From: a virus
Virus record (IMG/VR): IMGVR_UViG_3300021142_000002
Span: 1 to 64,000 of that record
Reading direction: 5' to 3' (one strand)
DNA length: 64,000 nucleotides
Shown: positions 2,343-18,800 of the stretch, piece by piece
How positions within the stretch are numbered: position 1 is the first letter of the stretch
Layout of the letters: each line of letters opens with the position of its first letter
Translations under genes and position numbers: made by a program
Notes under the pieces: generated by a model
What the model was told of the DNA's origin: nothing
What the model saw: only the letters and a program-made list of their open reading frames with translations
Databases searched by the model: none

Positions 2343-5300
2343 ATGTCTGATAATATCGACAATGATCTAATAGCTTTATCGGCTAAAACAGATCGACTGC
2401 TTGCTCTTTTTAATCAACAACACAGTACGTTTGGATCAGCAATTGCCAATTTAAATGCTAATCTAAATAGTCTGCAATTACCTGTTATACAATCTATTGA
2501 AGCTACATTAACTAACTCTATTAATACCAGAGAAGTATTAGCTAACAAAACCGATACCATTGCTAACAATGGCAATGGCACTAATTATCCATCAACAGCG
2601 GGTGTAATTAACTATGTTACATCACAGCTAGCTAGTTATGTAACTTCTAGTTCTTTAACAACTACATTATCTAGTTATGCGTCTTCTAGTGCTATTGGTA
2701 ATTTAGCTAATCTACCTAACAGTACCACTAATTTAGTAGCAGCTATTCAATATGTTAATAGCATCATTGGTAGTGGAGGCGGTAGCTTAGGTTATACTGC
2801 AGAAAATATTGCTCATAAAAATGCTAGTGATGGATATGCCGGATTAACCGGTTATAATTTAAACTTAGTTAATACAGCTAATACTTTTACCAATCAATTA
2901 ACTAATAATGCCACTGCAGCTAGAACGTTTACACTCCAGGATAAATCATACACATTAGCTGGTCTTGATGACTTAGCCAATTATCTACCACTATCTGGTG
3001 GTACTATTTCTTCTACATGGAATAGTGGGTCGACTACCTTTACTGGATTAACACTTAACTTTACAGATACTGCTAGTCAGGGTAATAGCTTAATACAAGA
3101 TTGGAGACTTAATAACTCCAGTAAAGTATCTATTAAAAAGACAGGTGATATGTTGATTAATGGCATTACTATTGGGTTAGGTAATAACCAATTATCTGGC
3201 TGCACTGCCATAGGTTATCAAAGTCTGAATTCAAATACAGGTGGTACTAATAACACAGCTATTGGCTATTCAGCTTTATCAGGCATTACCACAGGTGTGG
3301 GTAACTTAGGCGTTGGATACACAGCAGGAGCTGGTATTACCACGGGTAACTATAATGTTGTTATCGGCACTTATAATGCTACTTTAGCAGCTAGTAATAC
3401 TGTATTAATTGCTGATGGTAATAATAATGAAAAACTAAGAGTTAAAGCATCTGGGGATCTTTTATTCAATGGTATTACATTAGGTCTAGGGTTAGGTAGT
3501 GTAGCTAGTAACTTAGCTTATGGTGCCAATGCTTTAGCAGGTTATACTACAGCTACTTATAACATTGCATTTGGCAACAATGCTTTAAATGCTAATACTA
3601 CAGGTGCTGGAAACTTAGCAATCGGCTATAATAGTTTAGCGGTTAATACAACCACTAACTATAACTTAGGTATTGGTGGTTATACATTAACTTCTAACAC
3701 TAATGGTACTTATAACTTAGGGATTGGTTATAATGCCTTATATACCAATAATACAGGTAACTACAATATAGCCTTAGGTTATAATAGCCTTTATGCGAAT
3801 ACTGCGGGCTCTAGTAATATTCATTTAGGTTATTTATCAGGCGCTGCTAATTTAACGGGTAACTACAATATAGCTATTGGATATAATAGCTTAAATGCTA
3901 ATACTGCCAATAGTGGATTAGTAGCTATTGGGCATAATGCTTTAGCAGTTAGTACAACCAGTGCAGTAGCTAATACTGCTATTGGTTATCAGTCTATGCA
4001 AGCTATTACTTCAGGCTATAACAATACGGCAGTAGGTTATAATACACTAAAAACAAGTACTTCTGGCTATAATAATTCAGGCTTTGGTTATCAGGCTTTA
4101 ACACTTTTAACTACTGGTACTAATAATGCTGCTTTTGGTTATAATAGTTTATCTACCGTAACATCAGGCTCTAATAACTCAGCCTTTGGTTATAACTCAC
4201 TGGCTAAAGTCACTACCGCAGGTGGTAACACAGCGTGTGGGAATAGTGCACTGTATACTCTATCTGGCGGGTCTCAAAATAATGCCTTCGGTATGAATGC
4301 ATTAAACTTAGCTACATCAGGTGCTTATAACTGTGCATTTGGTTATAATAGTTTTCCTGCATTAACCACTGCTCAGTATAATACGGGTTATGGTAATAAT
4401 ACAGGTTTATTAGTAACTAGTGGCAATAACAATACGTTTATTGGTTATAATAGTGGATCGACCGTAACCACAGGTACTAACAACATTATTGTGGGTTATA
4501 ACTCAAATACATTAGCTGCTACCGATACCAATGAAATTATTATTGGTGTAGGATTAACTGGAGCAGGTTCTAATACAGTGACTATTGGTGGTAGTGCAAT
4601 TACGGCTACTTACCTTTATGGTTTAATTTATCCAACCAGTTATACTACATTAGCTGCACCAGCTTATGCACTGGGCTCATTATATTTTGATAGCACCTTA
4701 AATAAACTAGTATTAGGCGGTGCCACTGCTAAAGAAACAATAGCTACATATGCTGATTTAAGCAATTATGTAACCTCTAGTTCTTTAACGACCACTCTAG
4801 GTGGTTATACCACTACAGCAGCCACCGCCGCCATTAGTAATAGAGTAGCTGTATTTGAATCAAGTGGTGCATCAGCAGTTGGCGCATTATCTAGTTTAAA
4901 TAGTGCAGTCACAGGCACCTCAATAGTAGCGGCTATTAATAACTTAAATGCAATCGTTGGATCATTAGGTAGTTTAGCGACTTCCGCAACCTCTATTGTA
5001 GCTGCTATTAATAGTGTAGCTGTTGGTGGTGGTGGTACAGTAAACTTATCTAACTATGCGCTACAGGCTGATTTAACAACTGAGGTTTCTAATCGTTCTA
5101 GTGCAATATCGGCAGTTAATACTACTATTGGGTCTTTAGGTGCTTTAACAGCAGGCATTACTAATACCTCTATTGTTAATGCTATCAATAGTAACTATTC
5201 AGCCATAAATAGTAATGCTTCGGCTATTAGTGCGGAATCTAGTACTAGAACATCTGCTATTAATTCAGTTAATACAACTATTGGTGCATTAACTAGTTTA

Positions 5301-7358: not shown

Positions 7359-10208
7359 ATGAGTACAACCGATATACTCTATCAGAAATTTGAAGACCTA
7401 TTAAATCTATTTAATGTACAAAATACTACATTTAATAGTACGATTGCTGGTTTGCAAACAACCATTAATTCAATACAAGTACCCAATATTCAATCTTTAC
7501 AAAATGCTATTACTACTAAAGAGAGTCTATCTAATAAGGTAGATGCTATTTTATCTAATGTTAATAGCAATGATTATCCATCCACTCTAGGCTTGGTAAA
7601 CTATGTTAGTAGTCTAACAGGTAATTTAAATAATTTACCTAATGGCACATCAACTATTGTTTCAGCTATTAGTTACATTAATTCTCAATTAACTAGTGTA
7701 TTAGCAGCCTATAATGTTTCTACGTCAATGGTTACCTCCATTGATAACATTAACACTACTTTAAATACCTACTTTGCTAATGGTGGTGGAAGCAACGTAA
7801 ACACGAGTAATTTAGTCTCTAATACATCTTTAGCAACTACATTAGCAGGTTATGTAACTTCTAGTGGGTTAACTTCTACACTTTCTAGTTATGCATTAGC
7901 TTCTTCGTTATCTAGTGAGATTACTAACCGCAGCTCTGCGATTACTACATTAAGTAATAGACTAGCTGTGTTTGAATCTGGCAGCAGCGCAATAGGTTCT
8001 TTATCTACATTGACTAATAGCGCATCCAGTATTGTTGCTGCAATAAATAGCATTACTGCTAGTTCAGCCAATTATGTTACCTCTAGTAGCTTATCAACAA
8101 CTTTAGCTAATTATGCTAGCACTAGTTCTTTAGGTAGCTTAGCTTCTGCCTCCACACTGTCTGCAGAAACGGCTAGTCGAACGAATGCGGATACAGCTCT
8201 CAGTAATAGGATTGCTATTTTTGAAACAAGTGGAAATAGTGCTATTGGTTTATTAAGTAATCTAACTGTCAGTGCAACGAGTATTATTTCAGCTATTAAT
8301 TCAGTTAACACTTCTTTAACTTCTGTTAATACAAAGATTGGTACAATGGCTAATTTGCCAGGCGCTACAACCGATTTAGTGAGTGCAATTAACTATGTAT
8401 CCTCTCATGCTTCTGCTAATTTAACCTTTACTAATGGACTAATAAATACCAGTGGTACCGTTACACCTACGTATGGTACAACGGCTGGTACTTTTTGTCA
8501 AGGGAATGATTCTAGATTAAACTATATGAACAGTAGAGTCTTTGTAACCAGTACTCAGCCTAGCACGCCTGTCTTTGGTGATGTATGGATTAATCCAACT
8601 GATCCGAGTACTTTAGTGACTGGACCTGCTGGACCCTCTACTCAAGTATATATTACAGGGGGTTATACTACCTTTACTTATAACCCAAATAATGGTACTA
8701 AATATCCAAGCTCTGTAGCTCCTTATACCTTTGTATTTACAAAAAATGGGGTAGCGGTAAGTTCTTCACTTTATTCAATAGCTTGGGCATTGTCAGATCC
8801 TACGAATAGTTTATTTACAGTGAGTGGATCAACTACAGGCACTAGCTTTGCACCTACTTTAAATAGTACTTTTGATGCGACTAAATGTAATAATGCTATT
8901 ACACTAACTATTACAATGAATGATGGTTCTGGTACTTATGTGGTCACTCAGCCTATTTCCATTACTCAATTAGGAACTAATGGTGCAAATGGCACTAATG
9001 GATCAATAGGTAGTAATGGTGCAGCAGGTCCTACTACTCAGTTATTTATTACTAGTAACACGACTAGCTTTTTATATAATGCAGCAGGCACTAGCTTTGC
9101 ACCTGCCATACAAGCATTTAGTTTTACCTTTACGCAAAATGGAGCTACTGTTAATTCTAGCAATTATACAATAGCTTGGAGTATTCCTAATAGTGCTAAT
9201 AGTTTATTATCGGGTACAAGCACTGCCGCTACGTTTACACCTACATTAGCCAGTAACTTTAACTCAGCTTTAGCAAGTAATGCAGTTAAGCTAGTTATTA
9301 CCATGTCAGATAGTATTACCATTTATCAAGCTATACAACCAATCTCTATTACTCAGGTAGGTGCTACCGGTGCTACAGGACCAGCAGGTGCTTCAGGTGG
9401 TTTTACTAGAACATCCACCACTTTAATGTGTGATTTCATTAGTTCGGTAAATACTACTTTTGCACCCTTTTCTTTGATTAATCAATACGGCAATTACTGG
9501 CAAGGAGCTAGTACAGCTTATATAGACCCTAATCATCCTGGTGTAGTGACTTTAAACTCTGGAACGAGTGGTAATGGAAATGGTATTTGGGCAGATAAGG
9601 AAATAATGATATTTCCTACAGCTAATACCACTAACCCAACAGTTTATACCTATGAAAATCAAGTGATGTTCCCAACTCTACCATCATCTAATGAGATATT
9701 TATTTTTGGTATTTATGATGGTAATACCAGTGGATCTTCTACTAATGGTATTTACTTTAAAAATACAGGCGCTGTATTTACCGGTTATTGTAATCACTCT
9801 GGTAGTCCTTATTTGCCAAACTATAATACAAATGTTCACACATCTACTACTTTTACAGTATCAGCTAATGTCTGGTATACATTCCAGATAGTAATAACGA
9901 CTACTTATCCTAGCGGTGGTGACATGGATATTAGCATTGCCTATAACATTTTAAACAGTAGTGATACTGTAGTATTTACTAATACATTAACACTAGTAGG
10001 TGTGCAAAGTGCTAATGGTGGGGGTAGTACAGTTGCTGCCATTAGAACAGCTAATGGAACAACAGCTGCTGCTTTAGCTCAGTATATACCCAGCACTAAT
10101 GCGATGCCAATGAGAGTTTATTTATCAGCTTACAGTACTTCAACTACCAGCATTGATTACATTGCTTTAGATTATTTATTATATTCAGTTACTAACTTAG
10201 TGAGATAA
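7359..10208 (+). CDS. Tail fibre protein with Ig-like doublet and lectin-like tip
   Basis: The ATG follows TATAAGGAACT. The protein has 949 residues. Residues ~1-110 resemble the N-terminus of the preceding 1639-residue fibre, so both probably dock on the same tail structure. Then come coiled-coil-like repeats (SNRLAVFES, TSIVSAIN) to about residue 380, a VFVTSTQPSTPVFGDVWINPTDP linker region, and two similar ~120-residue beta domains (~425-545 and ~560-675), each preceded by a short collagen-like Gly-X-Y stretch (GTNGANGTNG, GATGATGPAG). The last ~270 residues form a separate beta-rich domain with many aromatics, plausibly carbohydrate-binding. It lies 6 nt upstream of a small conserved protein. 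No catalytic motif was seen. Confidence 0.82.
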   Translation: MSTTDILYQKFEDLLNLFNVQNTTFNSTIAGLQTTINSIQVPNIQSLQNAITTKESLSNKVDAILSNVNSNDYPSTLGLVNYVSSLTGNLNNLPNGTSTIVSAISYINSQLTSVLAAYNVSTSMVTSIDNINTTLNTYFANGGGSNVNTSNLVSNTSLATTLAGYVTSSGLTSTLSSYALASSLSSEITNRSSAITTLSNRLAVFESGSSAIGSLSTLTNSASSIVAAINSITASSANYVTSSSLSTTLANYASTSSLGSLASASTLSAETASRTNADTALSNRIAIFETSGNSAIGLLSNLTVSATSIISAINSVNTSLTSVNTKIGTMANLPGATTDLVSAINYVSSHASANLTFTNGLINTSGTVTPTYGTTAGTFCQGNDSRLNYMNSRVFVTSTQPSTPVFGDVWINPTDPSTLVTGPAGPSTQVYITGGYTTFTYNPNNGTKYPSSVAPYTFVFTKNGVAVSSSLYSIAWALSDPTNSLFTVSGSTTGTSFAPTLNSTFDATKCNNAITLTITMNDGSGTYVVTQPISITQLGTNGANGTNGSIGSNGAAGPTTQLFITSNTTSFLYNAAGTSFAPAIQAFSFTFTQNGATVNSSNYTIAWSIPNSANSLLSGTSTAATFTPTLASNFNSALASNAVKLVITMSDSITIYQAIQPISITQVGATGATGPAGASGGFTRTSTTLMCDFISSVNTTFAPFSLINQYGNYWQGASTAYIDPNHPGVVTLNSGTSGNGNGIWADKEIMIFPTANTTNPTVYTYENQVMFPTLPSSNEIFIFGIYDGNTSGSSTNGIYFKNTGAVFTGYCNHSGSPYLPNYNTNVHTSTTFTVSANVWYTFQIVITTTYPSGGDMDISIAYNILNSSDTVVFTNTLTLVGVQSANGGGSTVAAIRTANGTTAAALAQYIPSTNAMPMRVYLSAYSTSTTSIDYIALDYLLYSVTNLVR

Positions 10209-10213
10209 ACATT

Positions 10214-10696
10214 ATGAATTCAAAATATGATTCTGCTAGAATTGCCTTTGGTACTAAACAAATAGATTGGTTAAATGATAATATTAAATGCGCTGCACTA
10301 TCACCTAGCTATCCAGGCGGTACTATTGCTCTAACTACTCATTCTACCTTTAATGATATTGCTAGTTATGTATTAACGGGCAGTCAGCCTATTATCACAC
10401 TCACTAATAAAGTAACCAGTGTTGGATCATTAGCCGGTGCTTTTTCGTCAGGTCAATTTAACTTTGTAGCGTTATCTGGAAACCAAACCATTGGATTTTT
10501 AGCTATCTTTAAAGATTATAACTTAGCTAATATTAATGGTGCACCACTACAAGGCTCTTATGGCTCTCAAATATTAGCTAACCAAGCTTGCCCATTAATC
10601 GCTTTAATGGATTCAGGGGAAGGTATTGGTGCAGGCACTAATGGGTTTGACATACAGGTAATATGGGATACCACAAAGGGTATTTTTAGATTATAA
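10214..10696 (+). CDS. Small fibre-associated protein
   Basis: This 160-residue protein starts 6 nt after the fibre stop codon, so the two are co-transcribed. It has an N-terminal YDSARIAFGTKQIDWLNDNIK segment, a central beta-rich part with GNQTIGFLAIFKD, and ends with IQVIWDTTKGIFRL. Its shape matches a widespread small phage family encoded next to tail genes, in which a threshold of beta strands ends in a ITVxWDNGxNKIFRL-like tail. The function of that family is not known to me; a fibre accessory or tip protein is inferred from position. No signal peptide or membrane segment. Confidence 0.65.
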   Translation: MNSKYDSARIAFGTKQIDWLNDNIKCAALSPSYPGGTIALTTHSTFNDIASYVLTGSQPIITLTNKVTSVGSLAGAFSSGQFNFVALSGNQTIGFLAIFKDYNLANINGAPLQGSYGSQILANQACPLIALMDSGEGIGAGTNGFDIQVIWDTTKGIFRL

Positions 10697-10721: not shown

Positions 10722-13700
10722 ATGAATTTACTCTTAAACCCAACATCGTTTAATCTGTGGTCTTTTAATAAAACGACAGGTGGTGTACCATGCTTTACTA
10801 TTTATAAGGACATTGCTCAAAATCCATTTGGAACAGATAATTTAGCTGATTTAATAGTACCCGATATTAATGCCTATGGTGGGTTATATGAGGATATCAT
10901 TCTCCAGCCAAACACTACTTATTGGTTTTCTTTTTACACGTATACGCCGATTGGTAAATATGTTAGTTTTAGTTTAAATCTAACTCAAGGTGTTAATAGC
11001 ATTTACTGGGATTCTAATACAGGCACTACAACAACAGCAACCACCAAGTATCTATCTTCACCCACTACTTTTACTCAAGGTAGTGGCTATACACCTTCTT
11101 ATCAAGAAGCTACTTATAACAATGTAACCTTAACTTTAGTCTCTGGTACGCCACCTTCCGTTTATCCCGTTGCCAATATTAAAGTCATTAATGGTAGTGT
11201 TAGTACAGTTACCATTGTAACACCAGTTACCGGCGGTGATAACACAACTATTTATACAGCTACTAGCAATCTATTAGGTGGGACTGGATCTGGATTTACT
11301 TATAGCGCTAGTACCTCCACTATAATAGGTGGAGGCGGTTATACACCTTTATGTACAACTGTTTATCCTAATGTTACTTTAACTTATGTTTCAGGTACTA
11401 TTGTTACTACCCTACCTACGGCTAACATTACAGTGACTGCAGGTAAAGTGGTTAATGTAGCCTTGGTAAATAATCCAGTCGGTGGGGATATTACTACACT
11501 ATATTCAGTAGCGCCTTCTTCTATTGGTGGAACAGGTAGTGGGTTTAGTATTAGTCATTCTGCATTAACTGGATTAACACCTTATACCAGAATAGTTTGG
11601 AATTTGACTACGCCTAGTACTTTTGTTAATACATCCACTACTCGTGTTACTATTAATATTAGTGCGCCTTACCCGCAAATAGCTAATGCCTCTCAAGTCG
11701 TTATTTGGGGCGGGGTACTGGATACTAGTAATACTGGCTATGTTGAAACCAATATGTCTTATGGCATGTTAGGTATGGATGATGATACTGTACTGAGTAA
11801 TACGGTCTCTATTGATTTAAAGGATAGCTCAGGTAATCTGATTACTACACCATTTGATCCAGCTAGGTATAGGGTACATAATTACAATTTATTGCCCTTT
11901 CCAGACTCTTATGATTTAACTAAATGGACTTATACTAAATCTACTCTAAATACAGTCACTGCATTAAATAATTTAGTAGCAGGTAGTGGTTATGCGGACG
12001 GTGTTTATAATAACGTACAATTAGTTTATAACTCAGGTACAGCTGTTACAACATGTCCTGTTGTAAATATTACTGTTTATAATGGATCAGTATCTTCTGT
12101 TACTCTAGTCACTAATGGTTCTGGCATTACGAGCACTACCACTACCTTTACATGCAGTAATACACTGCTTGGAAATAAAGGATCTGGGTTTAGCATAGCA
12201 GTAGGCACGATTGGTTCTCAAGCTGGATTAACTATTACTAATAGTCTATATGAGAATCCTGGTAATACCTCTAAATTAACTAGCCTAGTCGTATCAGATA
12301 CAGGTAGTTATGGCGGTGTTAGTAAAGCTATTACAGTGTCTGCTGGAGCTACCTATACATTAACCTTTAGTGCTAACAGAATAAATCCTAATGGTAGTAG
12401 CTTTGCACTGCGCTTAAGGGTAAGTATTAATAACTTAAGTACTAATCTTTATTTAAATAATACAGCTACCAGTGGATATCAAACCAATTATGATAACTTT
12501 GTAACCGCAGCAACGGCTTGGACTACTTACACTTATACCTATACTGTGCCTGCTAATATTAGCAGTAATGCAGCTACCTTAGTTGTCTATATGACAGGTG
12601 CTACTAGCATTGTGTTTTATGGGTTTAATAATGTCTTAGGTAATGTACCTATTTCTTATTTAGAGCCTTATTTATTTTCATATAACTTTAATGGTTATGG
12701 AATAGATGATGACTCAGCTAGTGATACCCGCTTCCCATCTATTGATTTATACAACTCTAATCATGAGCTAACAACAGTACCTTTTGACCCTTATAGATTA
12801 GCACAGACTACTTACTTAGGGAAAAACTATTTTCCATGGGGAAATACTATCGGTAAGTTAGTTAACAATGCTTTCTTATATACTGTTAATACAAGTGTTG
12901 GAACACAGATCATTAATGACGTAGCGACGCCGCCTGCCGATATTGTTAATAACCCAGCTTACTTAGGCAATGCTGCTGATCTAATACAAGCGCCTAATGA
13001 TCCTACGTTAATTGGTAGTTATTTTAGCACACCTTTATCTTGGAATCTATTGCCTGCTTTAACTATAGGAAAACAATATGTTATTTCCTGTTGGGTAATG
13101 TCTAAGTACTTACCGTTAACAGGAACTATGTCAGTAAGTCCAGGTGGTAATTGGAATACAGGTTTACAGGTTCAAGGCTCTGAAGGTAATTTAGCTGATC
13201 CATCATGGAAAACATTAAATGGTAGTTATTCTATCATTTTACAAAATGATAGTAATAATGCAGGTTTATACAATGACATGGGTATTCCTAATGTAATACC
13301 TACTAATGAGTTATTGTTTACTAAACGAGCTGACCAAATTAGAGCCATTAGTAATAATGGCTCTACTAGTCTGTTAGTACAAGGCTGGACTAATAGTACC
13401 GTTTATGATATCTCTACAGCAACGAGTCTACCTACTGAAATTGCTAATATTAAATCATCTGTTTTAATCTATCAAGAATTAGCGTATGATCCCAATACCA
13501 GTAGCTACAATTATGATCTATGGGCTAAATATGCTGCCGATTACTCGTATGTAAATGGCAATGGAAATACAATTGTTGCATTAGATTCTACTAAACTAGC
13601 TTCTATTACAGCATGGGCTGTTATTTACCCAATGAAAGATGGTACTAAGGTGGTTAAGATATTCCAGTTCTATGGTACCCTATTTGGGGATACCTGGAGA

Positions 13701-16700
13701 TATCAATCTACTCAGGCTTATAGCCTTTATGACTCTGTTAATCAAGATTTAACTAAGCCCGTAGGCTATGGTTTCTTTTTTACCGGTTATTTATCTATTT
13801 ATGGTGGTATTAGGATTTATGATAATAGTAGTAAGACTACACCTACTAATATCAGTATCCTACCCAATGTCTGGACTAGGGTATCTTTACCATTTACAGC
13901 TACTCTACCTATGAATAACTTAACTCATTTTCTAGATAGACCTGGGAATAATGCAGGACCTTTATTTACTCAGAATACTAATTCCTGGACTATTACAGCT
14001 TTTATGCCTACTAATCCAAATGATGGTATTCATACGCCATGGTCACCTTTATACAGTAGTTATTACATCTATGGAATAATGATTAATGAAGGGACTGTGC
14101 CTTCAGTATATTTTCCTGATCCTTATCAGTTATATGCCTATAGCTTTCCAGGTATTGACTCAGAAGTTTATAATAGCTCACATACACTGCAACATGTTAA
14201 TGGCCCTAGCAAGATAACCTCAGGTGGAATATTAGCTGAAGATGAATATCCTCATCATCACATTGGTATAGATGTAGCAGGTTGTAGTTATTATGGAACT
14301 GCTAAAATATTTCTTAATTTAATGAAGTTAAGTAATGCAAGTCCTGTACTCACTGTAAATGATCCAACTGGCACATGGCCTGCTCAGTCGACTACACTCT
14401 GGAGACTCTATAGATCTTTATCGGTTAATAACATTGATACTTCTAGTAATGTATTAGGTACTCGTCTAATATTAAATGGTGTAGTCTTTACTACGGGTTC
14501 AACGACGATGACTTCCCCTAGTAATAATGGTGATAGTTGGTGGAGTTTTGATCCCACTAATTTAGTTAGATTATTAATTGGCACTAATGTGGCCAACAAT
14601 ACTAAAGTAGTTTCTTTTACTGTTAATAACACGACTAACTTGGTTACTTGGGTAGTTGATACTCCCTTTACAGGAAACAGTAGTGGTCAATATGGTATTA
14701 AGGCAGAGCTTATAGATGATTATACTATTTTGAATTTAGATTCAGATGGTTATCCTAGAAACTTACCGGTTGGTTATTATCTATATTCTTTAGTCTATAG
14801 AACAACACCAATATCATTTTTATTATTTTTAAATCCAGTAGCACAGCTGAATCATCCTATTTTACCAACAGGTTATTATACAGTTACTTGGGATGGCGAG
14901 GGCATTGTTGCCTTAGAGACCGATGTAGCTATTTTACCTAAACAGTATCCTGCCACTTTAATATCTTCTACTTCAAATAGTGCCTTATATTACGTCGATA
15001 CCAGTGGTAGTGCTGCCTTTACTACCTATACTAATATTACCTTAAGTTATAGTAGTGGCACACGGCCTTCTGTAATGCCCGTGGCAACACTTTGTGTGGA
15101 TTACTATGCAAAGTATGTATCAGCAGTTTTTGTGACTACAGCGCCTACTGGAGGCGATGCAAATACTGTTTATACAGTAGATAATACTTTAATGGGTGGT
15201 ACTGGAAATGGCTTTATCTGTAAGATAGATACTAGCAATCATAATAAGGTAACTATCCCTTGGGGTGGTCAAAACTATACGGCTAACACCAAGACATCCG
15301 CTAGTTTTAAATACTATAGAGGCTATGATACTAATGGTAATTTAACACTGCAAGGTTATACTGCTTTAAACTCTGAGACAGGTATTTTTACTATCATTAA
15401 AAGTAGTAATCCTAATAACAATGGAAACTATGTTAGAAATATTAAAGTCTTTGAAACTCAATATGCTGATTTAGTTAATGCTGGTGATATTTTTTATCCA
15501 GATTTTATTAATAGATTAGCTGATTTTAAATGCTTAAGATTTCTAGACTGGATGGCAGGTAATAGCTATCAGTACTTAACATCTATTAATAGTTTAACTA
15601 CTGAGTCTCATGTATCATGGGCTAATGGTAATATGGTGCCCTTATCTGTTATTATTGGCTTGTGTAATTTAGTTAAGAAAGATTGCTGGATTAACATACC
15701 CGTTTATTCCTCGGATGGGGATGCTTATTATTGGTATATTGCTAATCTATTTCAAAGTACTTTAGATCCCTCATTAAGACTTTATATTGAATATGGCAAT
15801 GAGCAGTGGAATGGTGGACTAGGACCTGGTTATTGGATTACTCAAGCGGCTACCTTTTATGGGTATGATAGCACTAAGGTATATTCAAATCCACCTAATT
15901 TGCTATGGTATAATCACATGTTTGCATATGCTATTTTATCTCAAAAAGTATTTAATATCTTTGCTAATGTATTTATCGGCTGTAGGAATAAACTCAATCC
16001 TCCAAGACTATGGGATAATCCTAAGAATCAAAAAAGACGATTATTTAGATGTTTAAGTACCATGCAGGGTAGTCAATCCATTACTTCTCAAATATGGTCC
16101 TTTGCATTGCCTTACTGTACTGCGGACTTTAATATTCCGTATGATGTTATTACACCTGCAGGCTATTATGACATTATAGGTGATGCAACAGTTAATGCTA
16201 ATACGTTAGCAGCATCTCCCAATGAGTGGCCTTGGACTAAAGAAGAATTAGAGCCTATCTTTGCAACCTCTTTAAATAATCAGACTAGTCAAGAAACAGC
16301 AGCAGCAATAGGTATTTTATCCAGTACTATTAGCACTGGCAGTAATGGCGTATTAGGTAGAGACAGTACAGGCGATCTATACAGTCCACTTATTTGTATG
16401 TATGAAGGAGGATTCGGTAGTGCCGGACCTAGCCCTTTAATGCTACAAGCTATTATGCAGTTATGCTTTGAAGAAGATGCACCCACTAACACTGTTTATA
16501 ATCTATCATTACAGCAATTTAATTGGTGGACTAATACCATGTTGCCTATGATGAGTAACTGTGATCTAGATGCCGCTGTTTATAACCAATGGGAAAGTAG
16601 TGTACAGTGGGCATCCAGTGGACAATGGGGTTTATCTGATAAGAGCAATTATACTGATACTCAGTATTATCAATTTCCAAGGCCTAGACTCTATAGTCAA

Positions 16701-16892
16701 ACGGCTGGTAGAATGGGAATGCCTACTATTACTATACCTATTTCACCTAGTAATACATATACGAGTAAACCCATGGTCTATGTTAATAATAGCTGGGTTT
16801 ATATGAGTAATTTTTATATGTATAACAATAGCTATTTTGCTAAAGTAGGTGCGCCTTCTTTAAGTTATTGGAATACATTAGTTTGGAAGTAA
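10722..16892 (+). CDS. Giant tail protein with C-terminal glycoside-hydrolase-like domain
   Basis: The ATG is preceded by GGTAGGATTT; an upstream in-frame TTG is less likely. The protein has 2056 residues. The N-terminal half consists of carbohydrate-binding-like beta domains separated by four copies of the GSGYxxGxYxNVxLxYxSG module found in the first fibre (residues ~108-200, 200-285, 413-502, 1410-1507). Residues ~1550-2000 look like a TIM-barrel glycosidase: IEYGNEQWNG places a likely acid/base at Glu1694, and ICMYEGGFG supplies a candidate nucleophile at Glu1895, about 200 residues later as in clan GH-A enzymes. Aromatic residues are plentiful. A tail-associated depolymerase for host capsule or slime is inferred. 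It closes the tail-fibre operon. Confidence 0.75.
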   Translation: MNLLLNPTSFNLWSFNKTTGGVPCFTIYKDIAQNPFGTDNLADLIVPDINAYGGLYEDIILQPNTTYWFSFYTYTPIGKYVSFSLNLTQGVNSIYWDSNTGTTTTATTKYLSSPTTFTQGSGYTPSYQEATYNNVTLTLVSGTPPSVYPVANIKVINGSVSTVTIVTPVTGGDNTTIYTATSNLLGGTGSGFTYSASTSTIIGGGGYTPLCTTVYPNVTLTYVSGTIVTTLPTANITVTAGKVVNVALVNNPVGGDITTLYSVAPSSIGGTGSGFSISHSALTGLTPYTRIVWNLTTPSTFVNTSTTRVTINISAPYPQIANASQVVIWGGVLDTSNTGYVETNMSYGMLGMDDDTVLSNTVSIDLKDSSGNLITTPFDPARYRVHNYNLLPFPDSYDLTKWTYTKSTLNTVTALNNLVAGSGYADGVYNNVQLVYNSGTAVTTCPVVNITVYNGSVSSVTLVTNGSGITSTTTTFTCSNTLLGNKGSGFSIAVGTIGSQAGLTITNSLYENPGNTSKLTSLVVSDTGSYGGVSKAITVSAGATYTLTFSANRINPNGSSFALRLRVSINNLSTNLYLNNTATSGYQTNYDNFVTAATAWTTYTYTYTVPANISSNAATLVVYMTGATSIVFYGFNNVLGNVPISYLEPYLFSYNFNGYGIDDDSASDTRFPSIDLYNSNHELTTVPFDPYRLAQTTYLGKNYFPWGNTIGKLVNNAFLYTVNTSVGTQIINDVATPPADIVNNPAYLGNAADLIQAPNDPTLIGSYFSTPLSWNLLPALTIGKQYVISCWVMSKYLPLTGTMSVSPGGNWNTGLQVQGSEGNLADPSWKTLNGSYSIILQNDSNNAGLYNDMGIPNVIPTNELLFTKRADQIRAISNNGSTSLLVQGWTNSTVYDISTATSLPTEIANIKSSVLIYQELAYDPNTSSYNYDLWAKYAADYSYVNGNGNTIVALDSTKLASITAWAVIYPMKDGTKVVKIFQFYGTLFGDTWRYQSTQAYSLYDSVNQDLTKPVGYGFFFTGYLSIYGGIRIYDNSSKTTPTNISILPNVWTRVSLPFTATLPMNNLTHFLDRPGNNAGPLFTQNTNSWTITAFMPTNPNDGIHTPWSPLYSSYYIYGIMINEGTVPSVYFPDPYQLYAYSFPGIDSEVYNSSHTLQHVNGPSKITSGGILAEDEYPHHHIGIDVAGCSYYGTAKIFLNLMKLSNASPVLTVNDPTGTWPAQSTTLWRLYRSLSVNNIDTSSNVLGTRLILNGVVFTTGSTTMTSPSNNGDSWWSFDPTNLVRLLIGTNVANNTKVVSFTVNNTTNLVTWVVDTPFTGNSSGQYGIKAELIDDYTILNLDSDGYPRNLPVGYYLYSLVYRTTPISFLLFLNPVAQLNHPILPTGYYTVTWDGEGIVALETDVAILPKQYPATLISSTSNSALYYVDTSGSAAFTTYTNITLSYSSGTRPSVMPVATLCVDYYAKYVSAVFVTTAPTGGDANTVYTVDNTLMGGTGNGFICKIDTSNHNKVTIPWGGQNYTANTKTSASFKYYRGYDTNGNLTLQGYTALNSETGIFTIIKSSNPNNNGNYVRNIKVFETQYADLVNAGDIFYPDFINRLADFKCLRFLDWMAGNSYQYLTSINSLTTESHVSWANGNMVPLSVIIGLCNLVKKDCWINIPVYSSDGDAYYWYIANLFQSTLDPSLRLYIEYGNEQWNGGLGPGYWITQAATFYGYDSTKVYSNPPNLLWYNHMFAYAILSQKVFNIFANVFIGCRNKLNPPRLWDNPKNQKRRLFRCLSTMQGSQSITSQIWSFALPYCTADFNIPYDVITPAGYYDIIGDATVNANTLAASPNEWPWTKEELEPIFATSLNNQTSQETAAAIGILSSTISTGSNGVLGRDSTGDLYSPLICMYEGGFGSAGPSPLMLQAIMQLCFEEDAPTNTVYNLSLQQFNWWTNTMLPMMSNCDLDAAVYNQWESSVQWASSGQWGLSDKSNYTDTQYYQFPRPRLYSQTAGRMGMPTITIPISPSNTYTSKPMVYVNNSWVYMSNFYMYNNSYFAKVGAPSLSYWNTLVWK

Positions 16893-18138: not shown

Positions 18139-18164
18139 ATGTTCCTAATTTAAGAGACTTGATT

Positions 18165-18800
18165 ATGAAAAAGTTAATCGGATTATTAATCCTACTGTTT
18201 AGTAGTGCTGTCTTTTCAGCACCTATACAGAAATCAATAACAACGAAGAAACAACATAGTAGTCACGTCGTATCTTTTATAAAGAATGAAAGCAAAGTGA
18301 CAGAAGTACTTTCGATCTTTAATGCCAATAAACAATACGATGATTCATTTAAACAGTCGAGTAACCAATATTCACTTGACTATCGGCTACTCAAAGTAGT
18401 CTGCACTGTAGAATCAAAACTAAAGTATGATGCAGTATCTAAAGAAGGTGCAATTGGACTTTGTCAACTTATGCCAAAGACTTGGAATAACATAAAGAAA
18501 ATCAGTAAGAAGAAATTAAATAAAATAAAAGATCCTCATCAATCTATTCATGCAGCTGCCACTTATTTTAATTATTTAGATAATTTTTGGAGAAATATAG
18601 ATAATAAAGAAAACCGCATTAAATTAGTTCTGGCGAGTTATAATGCTGGGGAAGGTAATATATCCAGATCTAAGAAAAAATGTCGTAGTGGCGATTACAG
18701 AGCGATTATGGGGTGTTTAAAGAGCTTTACTAGTAAGAAATCTGAAGAAACTAAAAATTATGTAGATTTAGTAATGAGTAGTTATTATAGGGTGATTTAA
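18165..18800 (+). CDS. Secreted lytic transglycosylase (SLT-type endolysin)
   Basis: The ATG after AAGAGACTTGATT gives a 211-residue protein; a TTG two codons upstream is less likely. MKKLIGLLILLFSSAVFSA is a clear signal peptide, probably cut after Ala19 or nearby. Residues ~65-175 form a lysozyme-like SLT domain: TVESKLKYDAVS gives the catalytic Glu83, followed by EGAIGLCQLMPKTW and later LASYNAGEGNIS, which are the standard motifs of Slt70/MltC-type enzymes. It would cleave the peptidoglycan glycan strand between MurNAc and GlcNAc, acting from the periplasm. Export by Sec makes it a SAR-independent secreted lysin. Two cysteines near the C-terminus may form a disulfide. It is the last gene of the lysis segment. 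Confidence 0.9.
   Translation: MKKLIGLLILLFSSAVFSAPIQKSITTKKQHSSHVVSFIKNESKVTEVLSIFNANKQYDDSFKQSSNQYSLDYRLLKVVCTVESKLKYDAVSKEGAIGLCQLMPKTWNNIKKISKKKLNKIKDPHQSIHAAATYFNYLDNFWRNIDNKENRIKLVLASYNAGEGNISRSKKKCRSGDYRAIMGCLKSFTSKKSEETKNYVDLVMSSYYRVI

Follow-up and report, generated by a model that had tools for sequence, protein, structure and literature searches.

The window analysed here is a stretch of 64,000 nucleotides, positions 1 to 64,000 of the IMG/VR virus record IMGVR_UViG_3300021142_000002, and belongs to a virus record of 220,366 bases. Its open reading frame (ORF) 10722-16892, on the plus strand, starts with ATG, contains no internal stops and encodes 2056 amino acids (aa). The product is read here as a tail protein, the C-terminal part of which would be a retaining glycoside hydrolase (GH) of the clan GH-A type. 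The parts of the gene on which this reading depends are listed below.

10722..16892, plus strand: tail protein gene with the predicted glycosidase module at the C-terminus (ORF, 2056 aa)
14235..16745, plus strand: predicted catalytic module of clan GH-A type, split by two inserts; about residues 1172-2008 (profile A4; AlphaFold2 model)
14262..14273, plus strand: predicted barrel strand 1, residues 1181-1184 (DSSP of the model, model strand 25-28)
14640..15020, plus strand: accessory part rich in beta-strands that separates barrel strands 1 and 2, residues 1307-1433 (profile positions 98-188; strands in the models)
15537..15539, plus strand: Arg1606 on barrel strand 2, invariant (104 of 104 rows; outside the search motif)
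15798..15803, plus strand: Asn1693-Glu1694 at the end of barrel strand 4, proposed acid/base (104 of 104, within the search motif; both models)
16164..16166, plus strand: Tyr1815 at the end of barrel strand 6, invariant (104 of 104; outside the search motif)
16404..16406, plus strand: Glu1895 on barrel strand 7, proposed nucleophile (104 of 104, outside the search motif; 55 of the 58 rows when only viral members are aligned)

An earlier note on this DNA placed a glycosidase-like domain at 15400-16892 and named Glu1694 and Glu1895 as its likely catalytic pair. Both residue numbers are correct, since IEYGNEQWN begins at residue 1689 and MYEGGFG at residue 1893. A domain of this kind does lie in that range, but the range falls short of its full extent. 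The family profile A4 hits three collinear pieces in the same frame (14235-14381, 14640-15020 and 15351-16745), which indicate a catalytic module of about residues 1172-2008 broken by two inserts. Barrel strand 1 thus lies far upstream of 15400, several hundred residues before the range first noted, with the two inserts intervening. The final 48 residues (window 16746-16892), VYVNNSWVYMSNFYMYNNS, are rich in Tyr and Asn and have poor model confidence; they are perhaps a short fibre-tip element.

The C-terminal domain had zero matches in Pfam, even at an E value of 10, and no NCBIfam model matched it, with one weak fibre-domain match elsewhere in the tail protein. Sequence searches of the PDB with the domain gave chance matches only. 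Searching 50,697 named phages by tblastn found nothing for the domain, and for four further members of the family, of which three are viral, no match there reached the limit of 0.01; the whole tail protein had a single chance match (E 7). No paper on the motif came up in text searches of the literature. Relatives were found on bacterial plasmids (tblastn; best E 2e-17, 25-36% identity) and in viral contigs, where a single-protein scan had a near copy as its sole match. Both Glu residues are invariant in the first alignment of eight relatives, and a scan with this alignment yielded 117 confirmed relatives in viral contigs. The best 80 of these 117 comprise one near copy, one that is 58% identical and a remainder of about 23-41%. 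In bacterial genomes, at least 117 contigs match a DNA pattern for E-Y-x-N-E-V-W-N, and all open frames with the motif match the family profile at an E value of 3e-62 or lower. The bacterial records cover Proteobacteria, Planctomycetota, Bacteroidota, Cyanobacteria, Armatimonadota, Acidobacteria and others. The DNA pattern biases the bacterial set towards EY-x-NEVWN, and only residues outside the motif count as independent evidence.

The columns that are invariant in alignment A4 (104 rows of bacterial and viral relatives) include Arg1606, Asn1649, Pro1660, Glu1690, Asn1693, Glu1694, Trp1696, Asn1697, Tyr1815, Tyr1894, Glu1895 and Gly1897. Columns 1690 to 1697 are part of the search motif and were partly selected. 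Arg1606, Tyr1815 and Tyr1894-Glu1895 lie outside it, so their invariance is independent evidence, and the pairing of Glu1694 with Glu1895 made from the phage sequence holds beyond chance. In an alignment of viral members only, Arg1606 is present in 57 of 58 rows, Tyr1815 in all 58 and Glu1895 in 55.

Structure prediction had been named beforehand as the check on the proposed hydrolase, and the predicted fold is a barrel. The AlphaFold2 model of residues 1157-2056 (predicted template modelling score, pTM, 0.72; mean predicted local distance difference test score, pLDDT, 65.6, with 75-97 across barrel strands 2-4) has eight strands in (beta/alpha)8 order. Asn1693-Glu1694 directly follows model strand 531-535 (residues 1687-1691) and closes strand 4, and Glu1895 is on model strand 739-742, which is strand 7. 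The best PDB match of this model is a GH53 beta-1,4-galactanase (E 2.5e-4, probability 1.00), with GH5 enzymes lower and of insignificant E; a Foldseek comparison with viral structures gave nothing significant. A compact relative from Microcoleus vaginatus, modelled from 104 sequences that include that of the phage, reached a pLDDT of 89.4 and a pTM of 0.86; 143 of its matches in the PDB have an E value of at most 0.001. The top 50 of these are all glycosidases, mainly GH10 and GH5 with GH53 and GH1-type enzymes also present, at a probability of 0.99-1.00 and an identity of 7-13%. GH5-type enzymes have an Arg at strand 2 and a Tyr at strand 6, and the phage domain has the invariant Arg1606 and Tyr1815 at these places. 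The phage domain resembles clan GH-A (GH5, GH10, GH53 and others) in its (beta/alpha)8 barrel and in the placing of key residues: an Arg on strand 2, Asn-Glu at the end of strand 4, a Tyr on strand 6 and a Glu on strand 7. The barrel in both models, the Glu pair on strands 4 and 7, the glycosidase matches in the PDB and the invariance of both Glu residues all support assignment to this clan.

It is conceivable that the barrel is a known family (GH5, GH10, GH53 or another) that has diverged too far to be recognised, a matter of classification only and compatible with a glycosidase function. The fold matches to GH10, GH5 and GH53 favour such an origin, as does the best GH5 alignment from hhalign, which sets SNE on the GH5 NE in register, albeit at a non-significant probability of 3.1%. 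However, profile comparison by hhalign with the GH5, GH10 and GH53 sets gathered here gave probabilities of 3.1, 0.5 and 0.3%, none significant. The barrel of the phage domain matched neither Pfam nor NCBIfam models, and the barrels of the viral and bacterial relatives tested were likewise without a Pfam match. Unlike GH5, GH10 and GH53, the family has a beta-strand-rich part between strands 1 and 2. A diverged known family is thus considered unlikely. The fold matches taken with the non-significant profile comparison place the predicted fold and the active-site layout in clan GH-A and indicate that the family is apparently none of the three compared.

Within this layout, Glu1694, on strand 4 and preceded by Asn, would serve as the acid/base and Glu1895, on strand 7, as the nucleophile, with Arg1606 and Tyr1815 as conserved support of the active site. 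Several observations weigh against an active, virion-borne enzyme. The phage model is mixed in quality (mean pLDDT of 65.6), with low confidence for the inserts and the final 50 residues. Three of the 58 viral rows have no Glu at column 1895, and may be misaligned or inactive. A His on strand 3 in 85 of 104 relatives is Val1661 in the phage protein. Finally, no PHROG matches the 2056-aa protein, so its virion location rests on neighbouring genes. The change from His to Val, together with the setting in a tail protein with stretches that resemble carbohydrate-binding modules, would suit a barrel that is catalytically dead, or a lectin-like receptor-binding module that merely recognises host glycans. 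A mere binder is expected to lose the invariant residues, and their retention therefore counts against such a module: both Glu residues, the Arg and the Tyr are all kept, despite only 58% identity to the viral relative L011 and about 29% to a bacterial relative. A dead or lectin-like barrel is accordingly judged very unlikely.

The part of the protein before the module contains small repeats and stretches that resemble the Pfam domain CBM_4_9. The repeat, of approximately 80 residues and ending in GGTGSGF, occurs in four copies in the tail protein, one of them within the enzyme module (phmmer, with repeat 1 as query), and at least two times in a neighbouring structural protein, ORF 43-2235 (phmmer). 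The second gap in the profile match contains this repeat of the tail protein itself (residues 1433-1496), and therefore a fibre repeat lies within the enzyme; the insert is absent from the aligned plasmid relatives. The several carbohydrate-binding-like domains of the earlier note correspond to three CBM_4_9-like stretches, which exceed the Pfam cut-off of 25.9 bits only as a sum (44.6 bits over the three, 19.9-21.4 bits singly).

11028..11291, plus strand: GGTGSGF-type repeat, copy 1, residues 103-190 (phmmer)
11301..11540, plus strand: GGTGSGF-type repeat, copy 2, residues 194-273 (phmmer)
11964..12185, plus strand: GGTGSGF-type repeat, copy 3, residues 415-488 (phmmer)
15018..15209, plus strand: GGTGSGF-type repeat, copy 4, inserted in the predicted catalytic module, residues 1433-1496 (phmmer)
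10893..11057, plus strand: CBM_4_9-like stretch 1, residues 58-112 (21.4 bits alone, under the Pfam cut-off)
12288..12590, plus strand: CBM_4_9-like stretch 2, residues 523-623 (19.9 bits alone; best stretch, 524-623, in the whole protein)
13056..13262, plus strand: CBM_4_9-like stretch 3, residues 779-847 (20.7 bits alone)

This N-terminal part, with its CBM_4_9-like stretches and small repeats, would serve as a stalk and in glycan binding.

PHROG matches among the genes of the window include virion structural proteins, a major head protein and internal head proteins, along with a polymerase and a DnaB-like helicase. Among named phages, the helicase and the major head protein are closest to those of Vibrio jumbo phages, for example BONAISHI and the Yong phages; matches lower down include phages of Erwinia and Pseudomonas. 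From its head, internal head and helicase genes, the virus is read as one of the phiKZ-like jumbo phages. At the left end of the window, the two large genes have matches to PHROGs of virion structural and tail spike proteins, and neighbours on the same strand match phrog_6002, phrog_4636 and phrog_23837; the tail protein gene thus lies within a virion and tail cluster. Two genes directly upstream are also found beside viral relatives.

7359..10208, plus strand: 949-aa fibre-like protein (weak collagen-type match only; the C-terminal part resembles an L011 gene at the same place)
10214..10696, plus strand: 160-aa phrog_644 protein, partner gene (PHROG match; partners 56% identical in L011 and 37% in L012)

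The 160-aa partner gene adjoins the enzyme gene in three viruses, and the partner in L012 is also phrog_644. The relative in L011 aligns with residues 505-2044 of the tail protein, and both viruses also have the 160-aa gene ahead of it and, before that gene, the fibre end. A small ORF at 18159-18800, just downstream of the tail genes, looks by eye like a soluble lytic transglycosylase with a signal peptide, ESKLKYDAVSKEGAIGLCQLMP.

As the location in the virion is deduced from neighbouring genes, and bacterial relatives are mostly stand-alone enzymes near exopolysaccharide (EPS) genes, the protein could instead be an active glycosidase that is not part of the virion but is soluble and released at lysis to disperse biofilm or aid spread. 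However, the domain is fused to about 1150 residues of fibre-like sequence, a repeat is common to the tail protein and the structural gene 43-2235, and the gene is placed after tail-spike-like genes. A soluble enzyme released at lysis is therefore quite unlikely. It is considered likely that the protein is a virion-borne retaining glycosidase that cuts host EPS, on a phiKZ-like jumbo phage. The analysis shows the gene, its homology and conserved residues, the predicted fold and the genomic surroundings; we infer its catalysis, retaining mechanism, substrate and virion location. The phage would most likely bear the enzyme on its tail and cut host EPS or capsule during adsorption.

The enzyme is a member of a large family common to viruses and bacteria, which in several bacterial lineages lies within polysaccharide-synthesis loci. 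In Sphingomonas, Hyphomicrobium and several Rhodobacterales, the family gene lies next to genes for GT2 or GT1 glycosyltransferases, Polysacc_synt flippases and a Bac_transf sugar transferase; these loci were picked by eye from 15 mapped and are not a share of all members. Plasmid relatives lie near glycosyltransferases, near mannose-1-phosphate guanylyltransferase, or near rfbA and a sulfotransferase. The bacterial and plasmid neighbourhoods suggest an enzyme that acts on bacterial EPS. The bacterial family, which has no model and is annotated as hypothetical, calcium-binding or cadherin-like, has the same domain and all the invariant residues of the phage protein. Bacterial members either stand alone or are joined to RTX, PKD or cadherin-like parts, whereas the phage member is fused to fibre repeats and contains inserts. 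A plasmid protein of Paracoccus marcusii (L007 1-5989), annotated as a family 16 glycosylhydrolase, also has the domain and may join two hydrolase domains in one chain. The bacterial contig L188 has two adjacent family copies, at 96-1937 and 2402-4243.

Of 24 viral contigs with the family that were tested, 12 carry a terminase gene; PF03237 and PF17289 both found terminases, and phrog_15 found none. At least those 12 are thus not stray bacterial DNA but come from tailed phages or prophages. A quick tree of the family requires 17 switches between virus and bacterium, of which supported branches force 10 or more, although its long branches make the count rough. These changes suggest that the family was exchanged repeatedly between viruses and bacteria.

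Beta-helix tailspike depolymerases presumably have the same virion-borne, polysaccharide-cutting role as the phage protein but differ in fold and catalytic layout; the phage model does not show a right-handed beta-helix catalytic domain. TspA, the tailspike of the Rhodobacter gene transfer agent, was considered as a counterpart and ruled out, since it is a beta-helix according to the literature. That a TIM-barrel tail enzyme would be uncommon, as first noted, agrees with DepoScope, in which TIM barrels account for 10 of 984 (1.0%) fold hits in phage proteins (PMC11326577). A TIM barrel has been reported in 4 of 313 Acinetobacter tail spikes, from phages reported to have depolymerase activity (PMC11823257). 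The tailspike of one of these, Acinetobacter phage Aci07 (PMC11823257), is, like the phage domain, a TIM-barrel enzyme in a tail protein, but it has 690 aa and its sequence is unrelated to the family described here (hhalign probability 0.1 to 0.2%). A barrel tail depolymerase is thus a rare kind that is already known, and, judged by sequence comparison, the present family is separate from the one compared, that of Aci07.

The wider result is a family that is common to bacterial EPS loci and phages and has no model in Pfam, NCBIfam or PHROGs. Searches for phage depolymerases target mostly beta-helix and propeller folds. The domain may found a new clan GH-A glycoside hydrolase family that cuts bacterial EPS, is used in the EPS loci of the bacteria themselves, and has been repeatedly exchanged with tailed phages as a class of tail depolymerase missed by current depolymerase catalogues and phage protein libraries, a proposal for which we hold the chances to be even. 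Members of this barrel-type class were found on at least 117 viral contigs and across many bacterial phyla; none was found among the 50,697 named phages, and the class has no model in the Pfam, NCBIfam and PHROG libraries used. If active, its members would be new EPS-cutting enzymes that can be tested directly, with substrates pointed to by the bacterial gene neighbourhoods.
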